Assembly: GCF_000091045.1 (NCBI RefSeq)
Contig: NC_006684.1
Span: 645,001-667,500, forward strand
DNA from: Cryptococcus deneoformans JEC21
Lineage: Eukaryota; Basidiomycota; Tremellomycetes; Tremellales; Cryptococcaceae
Direction of reading: 5' to 3'
Length of the DNA stretch: 22,500 nucleotides
The position numbers and the translations under genes were made by a program. The notes beneath the pieces were generated by a model that did not search any database, was not told where the DNA came from, and saw only the letters and a program-made list of their open reading frames with translations. Numbering within the stretch: position 1 is the stretch's first letter; the number at the start of each line of letters is the position of its first letter. Of this stretch, positions 12,714 through 21,080 are shown piece after piece.

Positions 12714-15558
12714 ATGTCTGCTTTCCTATCGGGCGCTTCGGTCCAGTGTGGACCTACATCTGCTCTCAAAAACGTCTCAGACAGGATCAACGTTGACCGT
12801 TCTCTACAACAGGTGCGCTGATGAGTGTCGATCACTTTGCAAGCTTATTTATAATGAGCTAACTTATCCCGTGGTAGGATCGACTAGCCTACACCTCGAA
12901 TGCCTCTGGATCATCATCAAAGGTGGGTATGGAAGTATGCATTACATCCTATATTGATAGCTTGCATAGCAGCCATTCAGAGCTCAACTTGCTCAGCTGC
13001 CAGTCAACCAGTCCCCGAAGCAAGTTCCAGGACCTCCATCAACTTTTGACCTCTCTTCACTGAGGCAACAGCTTTCTCCTGTTCCATCAACTTCTCATGC
13101 CTCAGATTGGGCCAGCGATTTCGTCCCTCTGACAGGACCGACAGCATCGAAATACACCCGTTCTGTAGCTTCCACAAAGAGCGGTTGGCAGGAAGAGTTT
13201 AGCCAGCATGTTGCAGCCGCGCCTCCACTTGGAACCACAAGATCTCAGAAACCCCTATATAATGCTGGTCTTGCACCATGGGAGGTTCCAGAAACTCAAT
13301 ATCAACTTCAGCGCCCGGCATTGATGCGACCAAGCTTTCGGTCGCATGACATTCCGATTTCAGAAGCAAGCCTGACATTTCCTCGACCTGATATCCATGC
13401 AGCGGCTCCCGTTAGTAAATATGAAGAGCAAATTGGTCAACCAACCGGATCAGAAACTCTGCCTCTTGATGAATCTCAACAATTACTAGCTCGGACGGCC
13501 CGGTCCTTTGTAAGTAATCTGGAGACCCAGTCAGACATTTTATCTGCCAATCCCAAATTTGCACAAAGTAAATTCTTGTCTCTTCTGAGAGGCTTAGGTG
13601 ACGAACAGGTTGTGGTCAAAGAAGGGCAAGAGGTAAAAGGTGAGGAGGTGGGTGAGGGTGCGACATTCGTTGAGCGGAACATTGTTGGAAACAATTGGGC
13701 GGAAGGTTTTGCCAAGCAAAAAGAGAAATCAATACCGCAAGAAGCCCCCACCTTGGCTGAAGCTGAATACCTCGAACGAAGATCGCCTTATCCTCCAGGT
13801 CAAAAAGAGTATCCAGCCCTGAATTCTTGGGTTCCGGCTTTGCCAACGCACACATTGGTTCCTCCCCAGACAGCTCCTCAAGCTGCCCGACTAGCCGCGA
13901 ATAATGGTGCTTTGTGGGATCAACAGTATCATGATCAAGAAGCCCTCATACAATCTTCGGAATCGCCCGCACCCGAGCCAAGAAAGAATGTCCACTTTGA
14001 CGAACACCCCGCTTCTCGAGAAAGGAGTGGTGTACCCAGCACTCTCGAGGAAGCCATTTCGTCTCCTGGCAACATCCCCGGCGCAGGTTGGGGTTGGAAT
14101 GAACAAGGGCTAACTCACGACTTTGATGAAGATGTTTTTGAAGAGTTCAATGGTCAACTCAGACGGGCCCAAGAAAGTTTGGAAGGCGGAGTGGGGAAGC
14201 AAGAAAGTTGGGATAGGCTGCAAAGTGATTGGGAGGAATTTCAAAGGACAGAACCTGGCGTTGCACATTTCAGAGGCATGGGGACTGGCGACCAGTCAGA
14301 AAGATACATGTTCCAAAGTCGAAACCCTTATTCGACCGATGAAGAGGAGCTATATTTCGAAGTGTCTAGAGACTCACCTACCTTAAAAGTGAGTTGCATA
14401 TCCCCTTCTTCTGTTTGATTCAGCCGTCTGACGTACATCCCAGGGTATACTTGAGCTTGAATCTGAAGTACAGAAAGATTCTACCTCACATGAAGCATGG
14501 TATGCCCTCGGCCTCAAGCAACAAGAGAATGAGCGCGAAGACCAAGCTATCTTGGCCCTATCCAAAGTCATTCAACTGAATCCGCAGTATCGGCCAGCGT
14601 ATCTTGCCCTCGCTGTCAGCTATACAAATGAAGGGGAAAATGAGGCCGCGTGCACCATGCTGGAGGATTGGATTAGACTGAAGGACAGCAAAAATACAAC
14701 CGGCGCTGATGGACAAAAAGGAAAAGACAGAAACAAACTCATTGAGAGTTTAATAGAAATTGCGAGGCAAACGCCGCACGAGATTGATGCTGATGTTCAG
14801 GTTGCACTCGGGGTGCTGTTCAATATGAGTGGGGGCCAGGTAAGTCGTCTTTCTTGTCAGCCATTGCGCGATTACTTATGACCATCTGGGACAGGATTAT
14901 TCCAAAGCTGAGGATTGCTTTTTGGCGGCCTTGGAGGCCCGGCCTGAAGTAAGGCAGCTTGCTTCCTGTAATACATCTCGCAGATGCTAACTGCCCCTAT
15001 AGGATTGGTTGTTGTACAACCGTCTCGGTGCAACACTTGCGAACAGCGGAAGATCCAGCGAAGCTGTACAGTACTACCATCAAGCTCTGAGGTTGCATCC
15101 CGGTTTTGTCCGAGCTTTGTAAGCATTTCACCACTATATCTCGGGTGATGCGAGCTTTCTAACGCAGCTCTTCTCTTCAGGTTCAATCTTGGCATCGCAT
15201 ACATGAATCTCGGTGAATATCAAACTGCCGCCCAATCAATCCTCGACGCCCTGAGGCTCCAGCACTCTGAGGCAAGTGAAGCCTATGCATACGGCCAGAA
15301 TGGTGGAGGTGCAAAAGGTGTTACGAGCGAGACGCTATGGAATAGTCTAAAAGGCGCCTGCTTCTAGTAAGTGCTATATTCACCTCTCCAAACGTTTTTG
15401 ATTCCTGTGTTAACGGATGGGTATCAAGTATGAATCGACAGGACCTTGTAAAAATCGTAGAAAAGAGAGATTTATCTGGTGAGTAGCCCTATCTGATGTG
15501 CGCCATCGCTAAATTTTTGTCAGGTCTGCCATTGAAATTTGTAGATGAAGAGCTCTAG
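12714..15558 (+). CDS. PEX5: PEX5, peroxisomal targeting signal 1 (PTS1) receptor
   Basis: Nine exons: 12714-12812, 12878-12922, 12970-14388, 14444-14839, 14895-14948, 15003-15118, 15181-15366, 15429-15478 and 15524-15558; 2400 nt, 799 residues. PEX5 is the cycling cytosolic receptor that binds C-terminal SKL-type signals with its TPR domain and docks at PEX13/PEX14. Visible features are an N-terminal cysteine at residue 12 (VQCGPTSAL), corresponding to the Cys monoubiquitinated for receptor recycling; WxxxF/Y motifs WASDF (Trp95), WQEEF (121), WAEGF (291) and WDQQY (364); a conserved NPKFAQSKFLSLLRGL segment; and TPR repeats from about residue 522 (AWYALGLKQQENERE, ALSKVIQLNPQYRPAYLALA, DWLLYNRLGATLANSGRSSEA, LFNLGIAYMNLGEYQTAAQS). 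Exon 3 may start at 12973 instead of 12970, a one-Gln difference. The gene is convergent with RPB11, 91 bp apart. Confidence 0.95.
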
Positions 15559-15649: not shown

Positions 15650-16269
15650 CTAAAAGTCGTATACATCCTGCCCCTGGTCCCTCACTGCACCGCCGACGAC
15701 CACATTGCCCTCCCTCCCGAACCCATCCCCATACGGATCGTACGCCCCATTCGCACCTGCTGCATCTGGAGCGACTCCTTGTTCGGGACCCATACCCATC
15801 TCGATGTTCTTTGCTTGCTGTTGGAATTGAGCTTTGATGTGTACGGTTTGCCGGATCAGTTCATGACAAGCACGTTTGAGAGCCTCTGCAGGATTTGACC
15901 GCTCGTCGGTCTGGATTTTGAGAAGAATGTCGTTTTCAAGAGGGTGAGGAACTTTGTAGCCCGCGAAGAGAACAGTAGGGTCGAGCATTAATTGTCTTAA
16001 CCAGTTGTCAGCACATCCATCATGAGATCAATTCAATGGCTTGCGGCTCACGCTCTGAGCATGTTTCCCAATGTATGATCCTGTCGTCGTATGACTATAG
16101 TGGAGGCGTTGGGCAGTTTGGGGTCCTCCGTGATCGTTAATCTGTCGAGTCCAACTCATTAACTTTTGATCCTTATGTATATATGTGCTTCGTAACGGTG
16201 TGATGGAGAAACTCACGGTTTCTCATCATCTTGTAACAACCATGAGTCAATCCTATTAGGCTGATTCAT
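15650..16269 (-). CDS. RPB11: RPB11, RNA polymerase II core subunit
   Basis: Three exons on the minus strand, 16269-16217, 16141-16052 and 15995-15650; 489 nt, 162 residues. RPB11 pairs with RPB3 as the alpha-like dimer on which RNA polymerase II assembles. Family hallmarks are the N-terminus MNQPNRIDSWLL (yeast and human proteins also begin with MNAP), RRQDHTLGNMLRAQLMLDP, LFAGYKVPHPLE (residues 57-68) and a helical C-terminal part with HELIRQTVHIKAQF. Yeast and human proteins are about 115-120 residues; here roughly 45 extra Gly/Ala/Asp-rich residues follow from about position 118, ending QGQDVYDF. The start at 16269 is set by homology. An upstream ATG at 16559, followed by a good donor at 16532, suggests a spliced 5' leader with a short upstream ORF. 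Intron 2 has a clear CTGAC branch and a TTAAG acceptor. Confidence 0.95.
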
Positions 16270-16906: not shown

Positions 16907-18864
16907 ATGCCGCTTTCATCTTCAAATTTTCATCCAAATCCTCCGACGGTTTTGATTCCATCAAAACGATCATCTGCGCGGACTCCTCGCTCTGGGTCCC
17001 TTTACAAGAAACATCGCTCGAACCCCAAAGAACAGCCAGAGGAAGAAAAAAAGGACATGTCGCAAATACTGTCAACACTGACAGCCATTATCATGGCTCA
17101 AAGTAATGCATTTCAGGCGCATGCCCAGAGATTCGACGCGTTCGCTGAAACAGTACAAACGCGCTTGGATTCCATCGAATCCAAATGTGATGATAGTCTG
17201 AATCGAAAAGAGCTTGGGATCATGGGCTCTCTAGGAGTTATTACTCAAGAAGTGAATACTCTTCGAGAAGAATTTTTATCCATCTTTTCCTCCGGAACCC
17301 GTTCCCGCTCCCGCCAAATAAGGCGCTCCCACAGGTCGGTCGCTCTCTCTTCCAGAGGTGCCCACGGTCATTCCCCCGCGGATTTCAATGATGGACAACG
17401 TCAGTCAAGTATGCCGAGTGACGGCGACAGTGGTCATGGCGGCGGGATTGTGGAAAGAGCTATCGCTAGGGAACTGAAGAGGCTAGGAGGTGCTCCAGTT
17501 TTAGCAGATGGGGAAACTACCATCCATTTCAATCCACGAAAAAGGTGGTCCAAAAACAGAGTGGACATCCTAGATATCGAGGAAGAATCAGATTTGGAAT
17601 CGTGAGTAGCCTTTCAAGGGACAGTGTGGAAATTCACAGACAACCCAGGGATACTGGCTCCAGCTTATACCCCATGAGCTCCAGTCTTGAAAGAAGATTA
17701 GCAGATGACGATGAAGAGTCAGAGTCAGAGGAAGAGGAAGAGAATGAAGAAGAAACGGAATCCGAAGAAGCTGAAGAGACTGAAAGCTCAGAACTTATAC
17801 GAGAAAATGGAGAGGGACACATGCACGAGAAAGAACCGTCTCTCAAGCGCGACAAGGTTTTGGCTGCCAGCAATGGTCACAATGTTGACGGTCATAAATG
17901 GCCCAAACTTGGGCCGGACTGTACGGAAGGACGCATGGTATGTCTTCTGGAGAAATCCTATATGAACTCACCCGTCTTCTAGAAAGTGATAGATTGTACA
18001 GCGGTATGTCTTCCTACATTTGATCCCTTAAAACTGACCTTTTCCATTACAATTTGACGGGAATGAAGTGTGATGGTCGGTAGGTTTCCCCATATCCCCG
18101 ACTGAGTATACTCATTGACATATGCATATATCAGTGTACATTGGGCTTGCGCCGGTCTGGATCCGGAGGTCTCTATGCTTAAGAAATCTTGGTACTGCCC
18201 CAGCTGTACGCTTTTGATAAAGGATCTTAAACCGGCGATTGCTCGAAGGATGAAAGAGCGCGAGGAATTACCAAGAACGCAAGATAGAGAACGATGTTTG
18301 AGACCAGATTGCATCCATCAGTGAGTCAGATGAGGCAGCCAGCCATAGCCTGCACCGGTATCAATACATACTGAAGTTTCCGGTCAGCCAACCGGTCGAT
18401 ATGACTTCTGCAAAAGCAGAAGATGACAATTTATACTACATGTCTGGCATAGTAGGGTTAGTGGTAGCGTGAAGCTGAAATCTTCCACTTTGCCGGGCAC
18501 TAACACTGGATATACAGGAGGCGCCATACCAAAGATCGTCCGAGAACTTTGCAATATTTGGTGCAGTGGAATGAATGGGAAGATTACGATTGTACATGGT
18601 TGGTCCTTGTCATTTGATTCGTTTGAGATAAACTAACTGCTGATATATGCTTATAGGGAACCACCTTCCAATATCCCCGCCGTGGATCTGCCCGGCTACA
18701 AGAGCCTGTTTTACAAGCAGGCTAAAAACGAGAACCTTGACCTGTCGAATAAGAAAACAGCGATTCTCTCTCAATTCTCGCAGTACTATGAAGCGGATGG
18801 AAGCTACAATGTAAAGCTATTGAAAAGATTGGGGGTGGAAGATAAGGACTGGTGGGGCTGGTAA
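16907..18864 (+). CDS. Coiled-coil, PHD-finger-like and chromodomain protein (candidate histone-methylation reader)
   Basis: Eight exons: 16907-17601, 17649-17937, 17983-18003, 18069-18079, 18135-18320, 18388-18456, 18518-18598 and 18657-18864; 1560 nt, 519 residues, all phases matching. Residues about 45-130 are helical with heptad character (MSQILSTLTAIIMAQSNAFQ, EVNTLREEFLSIF). A basic Ser/Arg stretch and then an acidic run (ADDDEESESEEEEENEEETE) follow. A PHD-like finger at about 323-363 shows Cys323, Cys333, Cys336, His341, Cys344, Cys360 and Cys363 (DCTACDGRVHWACAGL, SWYCPSC). The chromodomain spans about 415-457 (DDNLYYMSGIVGRR, LQYLVQWNEWEDYDCTWEPP), with probable cage residues Tyr417/418, Trp441 and Trp444 or Tyr447. 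Chromodomains of this type bind methyl-lysine on H3K9 or H3K27. Cryptococcus PRC2 has a chromodomain subunit (Ccc1), and this is a candidate for it or another reader; I cannot decide from sequence. Exon 2 could start at 17640 instead. Confidence 0.85.
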
Positions 18865-19416: not shown

Positions 19417-20558
19417 TCATGCCCTCACGTTATAGGTCTGCGTACTTTTAATTCCACCTCCGGCAGCCTTCGGTTCCTCCTTATCGTCCAACCTAGGTTG
19501 TTCCTTTTCTGAATCCACGCATGCAATATCCCGTCCCCTGTCACCATCATCTTGGACCTCCTTGTCTACCATGAGACCATGACCGACCAAAGTGGGAGCT
19601 GTTGGCATGGGAGTGGTCGATGCACCCTCAATTCCCGCTTCGCTGTCTGATTGCTGCTTCTCAGCTTCCCTAGCACGGCGTCGCTTGGCAATGGGGTTGA
19701 GAATAAAGTAGAGAATAACTACAATGCTGTCGAGTATGACGACAAGAGCGTAAGACACCTATGTAACCTGTTAGTGGATGGACGGCAGGGTGAAGGAAGG
19801 AAAGGCAGATGAATAACTGACGAAAGCAGCGATATCAAGGTCTTCCCGGAAAAACAGGCTCAGAAAAGAAAAAACACCTCCCAGAATATCGACAACCATG
19901 AAAAGTACAGAAATGCCAATGACTTCACGATATTTGTAGATCTCCCAATATTGTGGTCTTGATATTTGTCAGCAGAGTTCCACGGACAACACGTTTTAGG
20001 CGGCTCACAGTAGCGCAACAGCCAAAAGGACGGCAGAGATATATCCATACATCAAGATTGGCCACTCTGATCCATTTCGTTGCCCCGCCTATGACCATGG
20101 TCAGCAATCTACTCGAACGAGCGCATTGATCGGTAACCTTACCCAGAGCGCATACACACTACCGGTCTCGAACCCGGCGAAAATACAACAAAAGCCGAAG
20201 AATATCGCCCACACGGATTTGAGAGAGTAGCCTCTGTCATAATGCAGACACTGACACCAAGAGACGGCGGCTAGCACTCCAAAGGCCTGTGGCTGGATCT
20301 GCAATGGGATAGATAGTTTCTGAGCCACGATGTAAGCACCAAGGAACAAAGATGCCAAAGCCCATATGCTTTTTTTTTTGGTCAGTGAATTTACCAGACT
20401 ATATAATGACAAAATATGACTCACAACATGAGTGAAGCTGATAACCCCTTGGTCGTCTTCTCGCGATGTGATTTGATGATTTGTGGAAGGATTTGAATCA
20501 TCCACAAGATCGCACCAATGGTCCCCAAAGCATTCTCGGCGGCGTGGTTCTCTTTCAT
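19417..20558 (-). CDS. PQ-loop repeat membrane protein (seven-helix, SWEET/SLC66-like fold)
   Basis: Five exons on the minus strand: 20558-20425, 20368-20143, 20088-20009, 19957-19822 and 19758-19417; 918 nt, 305 residues. Two PQ-loop repeats are visible: GTIGAILWMIQILPQIIKSH with Pro25-Gln26, then KTTKGLSASLMFIW; and LLPQYWEIYKYREVIGISVL with Pro148-Gln149, then FMVVDILGGVFSFLSLFF. Between and after them are hydrophobic segments (WALASLFLGAYIVAQ, VWAIFFGFCCIFAGF, ALVVILDSIVVILYFIL), consistent with seven helices. The C-terminal ~90 residues are basic then acidic and hydrophilic (KRRRAREAEKQQSDSEAG). PQ-loop proteins include lysosomal/vacuolar cationic amino acid and cystine exporters and Golgi/endosome proteins related to flippases; the substrate here is unknown. 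The first intron ends in an A-run directly before its AG, with no pyrimidine tract. Confidence 0.88.
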
Positions 20559-21080
20559 TGCCTGTAATGGTGTCGTGTGACTAGAGGAGCAGCAGTTACG
20601 GTGACGATAATCAAGAGACAGCAGGTCAATGCCGGTCTGTGAATCTCAAACTCTAGACGACGTGGTTATAAAAGTTGAGGGAAACAGACAATATTGGTAC
20701 AGTAAATCATGATTATGGTTCTATATTGGAGCGATAAGCCAGCAAGAGTTAATGGTAACGAGAGACGCATCATGAGCATGAGCTACTTCGGAAAAGAGAG
20801 ACGATTTTTCTCCGGCGACTCAACGGTTTAGGCAAAATTAGTAATTCCTGTAGGCGATTTCCGCCAAGCTCGCCTGGAAGTGCCTCCACCTACCTGCCTC
20901 AGCTTAGAATAGCGACCGCCAATAATAATTATGACAAATTTGCCAGAAAAGTTACTCACCCGCCGTAGAACATGGTGTGCTATTTTCGACAGCATGCATG
21001 CGACAAGCCATTCCGCATAGGTGGAATTGTAGGCAGTGATTGGCGAGATAGCAACGAACAGACGAACGACAGCACTTCTT
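20559..21080. promoter_or_regulatory. Upstream region of the PQ-loop gene, no other feature seen
   Basis: This stretch lies upstream of the minus-strand start at 20558. The only long frame (20828-21103, minus) has no family motif. I see no tRNA, repeat family or mobile element. It presumably holds the promoter of the PQ-loop gene and, at its right end, part of the promoter of a plus-strand transcript. Confidence 0.4.

Follow-up and report, generated by a model that had tools for sequence, protein, structure and literature searches.

A candidate Polycomb-type chromodomain reader with a degenerate PHD-like finger and a linked paralogue in Cryptococcus deneoformans

Chromatin remodellers such as Mi-2/CHD4 and fission yeast Mit1 carry PHD-type and chromo domains in a single protein, while Spp1/Cfp1 keeps the full PHD ligand set without a chromodomain. 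A non-canonical monovalent zinc finger reportedly stabilizes the incorporation of Cfp1 into COMPASS, the complex that methylates H3K4 (PMC7145517). In Cryptococcus, Ccc1 is described as a PRC2 subunit with a chromodomain and a coiled coil (PMC8788455). According to the reviews, in the parts we could draw on, Ccc1 recognises H3K27me3, a mark that shifts into H3K9-methylated regions when Ccc1 is lost (PMC8788455, PMC7348808, PMC9720130, PMC13068663). It is also said to resemble proteins of deacetylase complexes and to associate with Hda1 (PMC7348808).

Here we describe a gene in a window of 22,500 nucleotides, G000:C2:645001-667500, of the C. deneoformans JEC21 genome. Judged against the published description of Ccc1, its product is similar in having a chromodomain and a coiled coil (the latter in residues 45-94 only) and in coming from Cryptococcus. 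It also has a PHD-like part, which the descriptions of Ccc1 available to us do not mention. We consider it fairly likely that the gene encodes a Polycomb (PRC2) chromodomain reader, and Ccc1 is then the best candidate.

An eight-exon gene with a paralogue close by

The gene occupies 16907-18864 on the plus strand, and its eight exons are spliced into a model of 519 amino acids:

Exon 1, 16907..17601, plus strand: start codon and N-terminal region, with the predicted coiled coil of residues 45-94 at about 17039-17188 (from the model, the orthologues, the periodicity and the low-confidence helices of P0001).
Exon 2, 17649..17937, plus strand: acidic tract, residues 251-300, at about 17704-17853; C323 at 17920-17922 (acceptor following P0001 and P0002).
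Exon 3, 17983..18003, plus strand: 21 bases, KVIDCTA, with candidate zinc ligand C333 (the paralogue has an exon of equal length and phase).
Exon 4, 18069..18079, plus strand: 11 bases, with C336 and the invariant R339, whose codon is split with exon 5 (again matched in length and phase by an exon of the paralogue).
Exon 5, 18135..18320, plus strand: H341, C344, C360 and C363, then C393 (18295-18297) and C398 (18310-18312) downstream (invariant in all eight aligned members; PHD-like match below cut-off).
Exon 6, 18388..18456, plus strand: start of the chromodomain, with cage residue Y417 (Pfam Chromo above cut-off; CBX1 alignment).
Exon 7, 18518..18598, plus strand: core of the chromodomain, with cage residues W441 and W444 (Pfam Chromo, alignments).
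Exon 8, 18657..18864, plus strand: end of the chromodomain (WEPPSNI) and C-terminal region; stop codon at 18862-18864 (Pfam Chromo, spliced model).

Two protein searches, one of which scored the 7986 candidates with the most shared words, returned only two homologues for the window protein. The first, P0001, has 519 residues and is 86% identical to it in the alignment (84% by BLASTP). The second, P0002 (CNBG_0134 of C. deuterogattii R265), has 457 residues, starts at window residue 63, and is 80% identical (78% by BLASTP). Identity over residues 310-519 rises to 91% and 88%, respectively. Since both orthologues read S-D-T-G/A-S-S at the first junction, we chose the acceptor ending at 17648 and dropped two alternative models with other exon-2 acceptors.

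When the genome was searched with the part of the window protein that carries the domains, just two loci matched at E ≤ 10, with six exon matches, five of them in the window gene. The other locus, a few kilobases off and outside the window (G000:C2:672486-670344, minus strand; L013:4345-6487), encodes a paralogue of 548 amino acids in seven exons; it was also found in the genome search with the Chromo profile (G000:C2:670617-670733, minus strand). The two proteins are 30% identical across 201 residues (BLASTP E 1e-21). They have in common an N-terminal helical region, a finger with a C-x4-C pair, a chromodomain, and exons of 21 and 11 bases with their phases, whereas the paralogue differs in its cage (F-W-Y), in lacking C323, and in reading WEYR for WEPP. 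The gene models of both are supported because these mini-exons occur in each with equal phases. The sequence-only reading had drawn the same 519-residue spliced model, whose exon joins are backed by the orthologues and by the mini-exons of the paralogue. It had also placed C323, C333, C336, H341, C344, C360, C363, Y417/Y418, W441 and W444 where we find them, and its observation of a gene with a finger-like part and a chromodomain is confirmed.

The search with the paralogue gave seven proteins (P0003-P0009), among them P0003 and P0004 of C. neoformans, P0005 of Cryptococcus sp. DSM 104548, P0006 of C. amylolentus, and P0007 of C. floricola. In the tree, which was rooted at its midpoint only, the window and paralogue groups are split with full support. 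The second intron of the paralogue begins with GC (GCGAGT) in our model. The predicted proteins P0008 and P0009 end soon after this intron, which suggests annotation trouble at this point.

Gene order relates both genes to strain H99, where, in the sources as far as they were available, CNAG_03730 is RPB11 (PMC6115741), CNAG_03732 an integral membrane protein (PMC12417091), and CNAG_03734 the "chromodomain protein" CDP1 (PMC4778953, PMC8022950). In the window, an RPB11 frame (15653-16027, minus strand, Pfam E 9.8e-19) precedes the gene, and frames that by eye are hydrophobic and of membrane type follow it (19417-20580, minus strand); the piece of these that was scanned, 20104-20580, matched no Pfam family at E ≤ 0.001. 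By this succession, the window gene is CNAG_03731 and not CDP1, and the paralogue is probably CDP1. The published tables list CDP1, like AGO1 and others, as absent from C. deuterogattii R265, and mark its role in RNAi as unknown (PMC4778953, PMC8022950); the window gene does have an orthologue in R265, CNBG_0134. The literature search, which covered open-licence papers, found no paper on CNAG_03731. Elsewhere in the window, at 12970-14881, a frame that matches the PEX18/PEX21 C-terminal domain (29.3 bits, cut-off 25) is closely followed by a TPR frame, an arrangement like that of a Pex5-type peroxisomal import receptor.

Domains, cage and the identity of the gene

In the Pfam scan, which used a 522-residue model of the window protein, six families were listed at E ≤ 1. 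Chromo (PF00385) matched with 37.1 bits (E 2.9e-9, cut-off 25.1) and scored 38.5 and 40.9 bits in the two orthologues. The clear chromodomain of the sequence-only reading is thus borne out, with Y417, W441 and W444 aligned to CBX1. Helicase, SET and chromoshadow domains were not among the families listed. The protein therefore differs from Mi-2/CHD4 and Mit1, as it lacks a SNF2 helicase family match at this threshold and only Chromo passes its cut-off, and from HP1/Swi6, as the chromoshadow family was not found in it. The acidic tract noted earlier is also there, with 26 Asp or Glu among the 50 residues of 251-300.

At the N-terminus, residues 45-103 form a stretch of 59 residues without Pro or Gly. 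The 3.5-residue hydrophobic periodicity of residues 45-94 was equalled by 26 of 5000 shuffles, while it was not significant at the 1% level in residues 102-143 (259 of 5000), in residues 45-130 (4338 of 5000), or in residues 55-140 of the paralogue (2009 of 5000). The AlphaFold2 model of P0001, built from the seven-row alignment A2, has helices at 45-94 and 102-143, both of low confidence (mean pLDDT 34, pTM 0.18). As the other stretches fail the periodicity test and these helices are of low confidence, a coiled coil, noted earlier for the N-terminal region, is supported for residues 45-94 only.

The cage of the window protein has three aromatic residues, Y417-W441-W444, when aligned to CBX1. 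At the residues known to form the cage in the reference proteins, the printed alignments have Y-W-W in fly Polycomb, F-W-W in CBX8 and CBX6, and Y-W-F in CBX1 and CBX5. In terms of its letters, Y417-W441-W444 is the Polycomb pattern. All five sequences of the paralogue group have F-W-Y. A Trp at the third cage place is also found in CHD1, a reader of H3K4me3. The chromodomain frames of Dnmt5 and Swi6 in this genome, identified by eye, have Tyr there; in the source as consulted, both proteins are H3K9me readers in C. neoformans (PMC6896017). The residue before the cage Tyr is Leu in the window protein, Val in Polycomb and in the paralogue, and Glu in CBX1, so that a hydrophobic residue at this place does not separate the window protein from its paralogue.

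The genome search with the Chromo profile gave 19 matches at E ≤ 10, which were assigned by eye. The window gene, the paralogue, Dnmt5 and Swi6 account for one each, Chd1 for two, and EF3-like ATPases, which are not chromatin proteins, for two. Nine are probable retroelements or their remnants (of these, C6:884 kb and C12:174 kb were inspected, the rest judged from the table). The remaining two lie at C1:214 kb (19.9 bits, below cut-off) and at C1:832 kb (G000:C1:832013-832192), where a clear chromodomain of 45.8 bits with an F-W-Y cage, read by eye, is found near the N-terminus of the gene. The ATPases, by eye two distinct ABC proteins (G000:C1:265124-265276 and G000:C4:651879-652016), each carry a chromodomain-like insert, the second scoring 23.5 bits, below the Chromo cut-off.

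Architecture, cage, gene order, and the fact that the gene is not CDP1 all point to Ccc1, and on these grounds, with Ccc1 known by its published description, we regard the identity as quite probable. The sequence-only reading had offered Ccc1 or an independent reader; the candidacy of Ccc1 is strengthened by these four points, short of proof of identity. The genome has a single match to the EZH2-type preSET_CXC profile (G000:C11:347114-347248, E 7e-5, 28 bits, cut-off 23.3), and none of the ten matches listed in the genome search for SET lies on the same contig; the CXC match by itself is consistent with an EZH2 gene in this genome. The genome search for the VEFS box gave no matches, as did its controls.

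The window gene might instead encode a reader independent of PRC2, Ccc1 being another gene, e.g., the one at C1:832 kb. We find this unlikely, with a chance that still deserves weight. The chromodomain at C1:832 kb is clear, though only the first part of that gene is readable, and the open-licence literature searched, in the parts available, did not give a gene number for Ccc1. Yet the third cage residue at C1:832 kb is, by eye, Tyr, and it is the window gene that combines a chromodomain with a coiled-coil-like helix and a Polycomb-type cage.

A reader of H3K9 methylation in constitutive heterochromatin, acting like HP1/Swi6 or as CDP1 may, is improbable. The whole chromodomain does resemble those of cpSRP43, CBX5 and CBX1 more than that of Polycomb (1pdq, E 0.028), so that CBX5 and CBX1 are among its best matches, and the listed losses of R265 include the paralogue, probably CDP1, as well as RNAi genes. 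However, the third cage place does not hold the Phe or Tyr of HP1-type cages, the cage Tyr is not preceded by Glu, and both published tables, as consulted, leave the RNAi role of CDP1 as unknown.

A PHD-like finger with a changed set of zinc ligands

The PHD profile (PF00628) matched the 522-residue model with 21.1 bits and E 3.1e-4, which is beyond chance but below the curated threshold of 24. Hence, in the comparison with the Pfam Chromo and PHD profiles that had been proposed from the sequence, Chromo passes its cut-off and PHD does not. The orthologues score 20.4 and 17.3 bits and P0006 12.7 bits, and for P0003 no PHD match was listed at E ≤ 1. Among solved structures, the finger piece is best matched by the PHD of ING2 (E 3.7e-5), then by Spp1 and TAF3.

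We aligned eight of the 11 family sequences (the window gene, the paralogue and P0001-P0009) in alignment A3, leaving out P0004, in whose predicted protein the first half of the finger is missing, as well as P0008 and P0009, whose predicted proteins end before the zinc pairs. H341 and eight cysteines (C333, C336, C344, C360, C363, C393, C398 and C449) are invariant in all eight members. C323, present in three of them, is the only cysteine of the C-terminal part of the window protein that varies. Eight of nine cysteines are thus invariant in this part, against 45 of its 219 residues overall; the chance of at least eight of nine is 1.4e-5, a value that is indicative given that the rows are related. 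With C449 excluded, as it lies within the chromodomain, eight potential ligands are kept across the family: C333, C336, H341, C344, C360, C363 and the pair C393-x4-C398. The seven of eight PHD ligands counted from C323 to C363 in the sequence-only reading hold from C333 onwards, but not for C323, and the downstream pair had gone uncounted.

The usual order of a Cys4-His-Cys3 finger with all eight ligands does not occur in the family, as the first cysteine is missing from all eight aligned members and the second from five. At the place of the methyl-lysine Trp of PHD fingers, two residues before the zinc His, where TAF3 has Trp in the alignment, all eight have Arg339. Because of this substitution, reading of H3K4me3 by the finger is unlikely, and the finger is probably a structural module. 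These features speak against the earlier proposal that the protein reads two marks on one tail. A working PHD finger that reads the H3 N-terminus alongside the chromodomain is very doubtful: the Pfam match and the similarity to the ING2, TAF3 and Spp1 fingers favour it, while the loss of the first ligand, the frequent loss of the second, the replacement of the cage Trp and the sub-threshold PHD score weigh against it.

C333/C336 and C360/C363 would make an intact PHD site 2. For H341 and C344, whose partners are wholly lost in the paralogue and half lost in the window gene, C393 and C398 could supply the missing ligands. The extended PHD of Spp1/Cfp1 in COMPASS likewise has a PHD followed by a C-x4-C at the equivalent place (6j2p and 6ven alignments). 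The pair may descend from such an extended PHD, since the HMMER alignment with Spp1 runs on through the C-x4-C of Spp1 (KRKCRISDCY), which it places opposite ERCLRPDCI of the window protein. No convincing Spp1-like gene, as a possible source of the finger, was found among the 18 PHD loci of the genome (E ≤ 1), which were checked for a single form of the C-x4-C, [RK]C-x-[RN]-x-x-C, together with the end of the PHD; six were inspected further. The AlphaFold2 model of P0001 is too poor for zinc geometry. Alternatively, and only in the window protein, H400/H401 could take part in a separate zinc site; both histidines are missing from the paralogue.

Proposed role of the reader and its paralogue

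In the mechanism we propose, the N-terminal helix of the window protein would tie the reader to PRC2 or other partners. Methylated H3 would be held in the Tyr-Trp-Trp cage of the C-terminal chromodomain, with a preference for H3K27me3. The PRC2 enzyme would thereby stay where its own product is. The zinc module would derive from a PHD finger that lost its first ligand pair, of which one of the two is left in the window branch, as well as its methyl-lysine Trp. It would serve a structural or protein-binding role, either packed between the helix and the chromodomain or bound to a partner, with site 1 presumably completed by the downstream C393-x4-C398.

The odd set of zinc ligands and the linked paralogue look new. 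As a tentative and rather unlikely extension, a local duplicate pair may have split between two silencing systems: the window gene, probably Ccc1, would have gained or retained a cage of Polycomb type that serves PRC2, and the other, probably CDP1, would have an HP1-like cage and a past linked to RNAi. In the PHD finger of each, a C-x4-C downstream of the finger would stand in for the lost first ligand pair, i.e., a rearranged zinc order.

Ccc1, as published accounts in the parts consulted have it, keeps the Cryptococcus PRC2 at its proper places. The origin of such a subunit would become visible in a recognisable family that has a peculiar zinc module and includes a linked paralogue, and the pair would allow a direct test of how a duplicated reader might serve two silencing systems.
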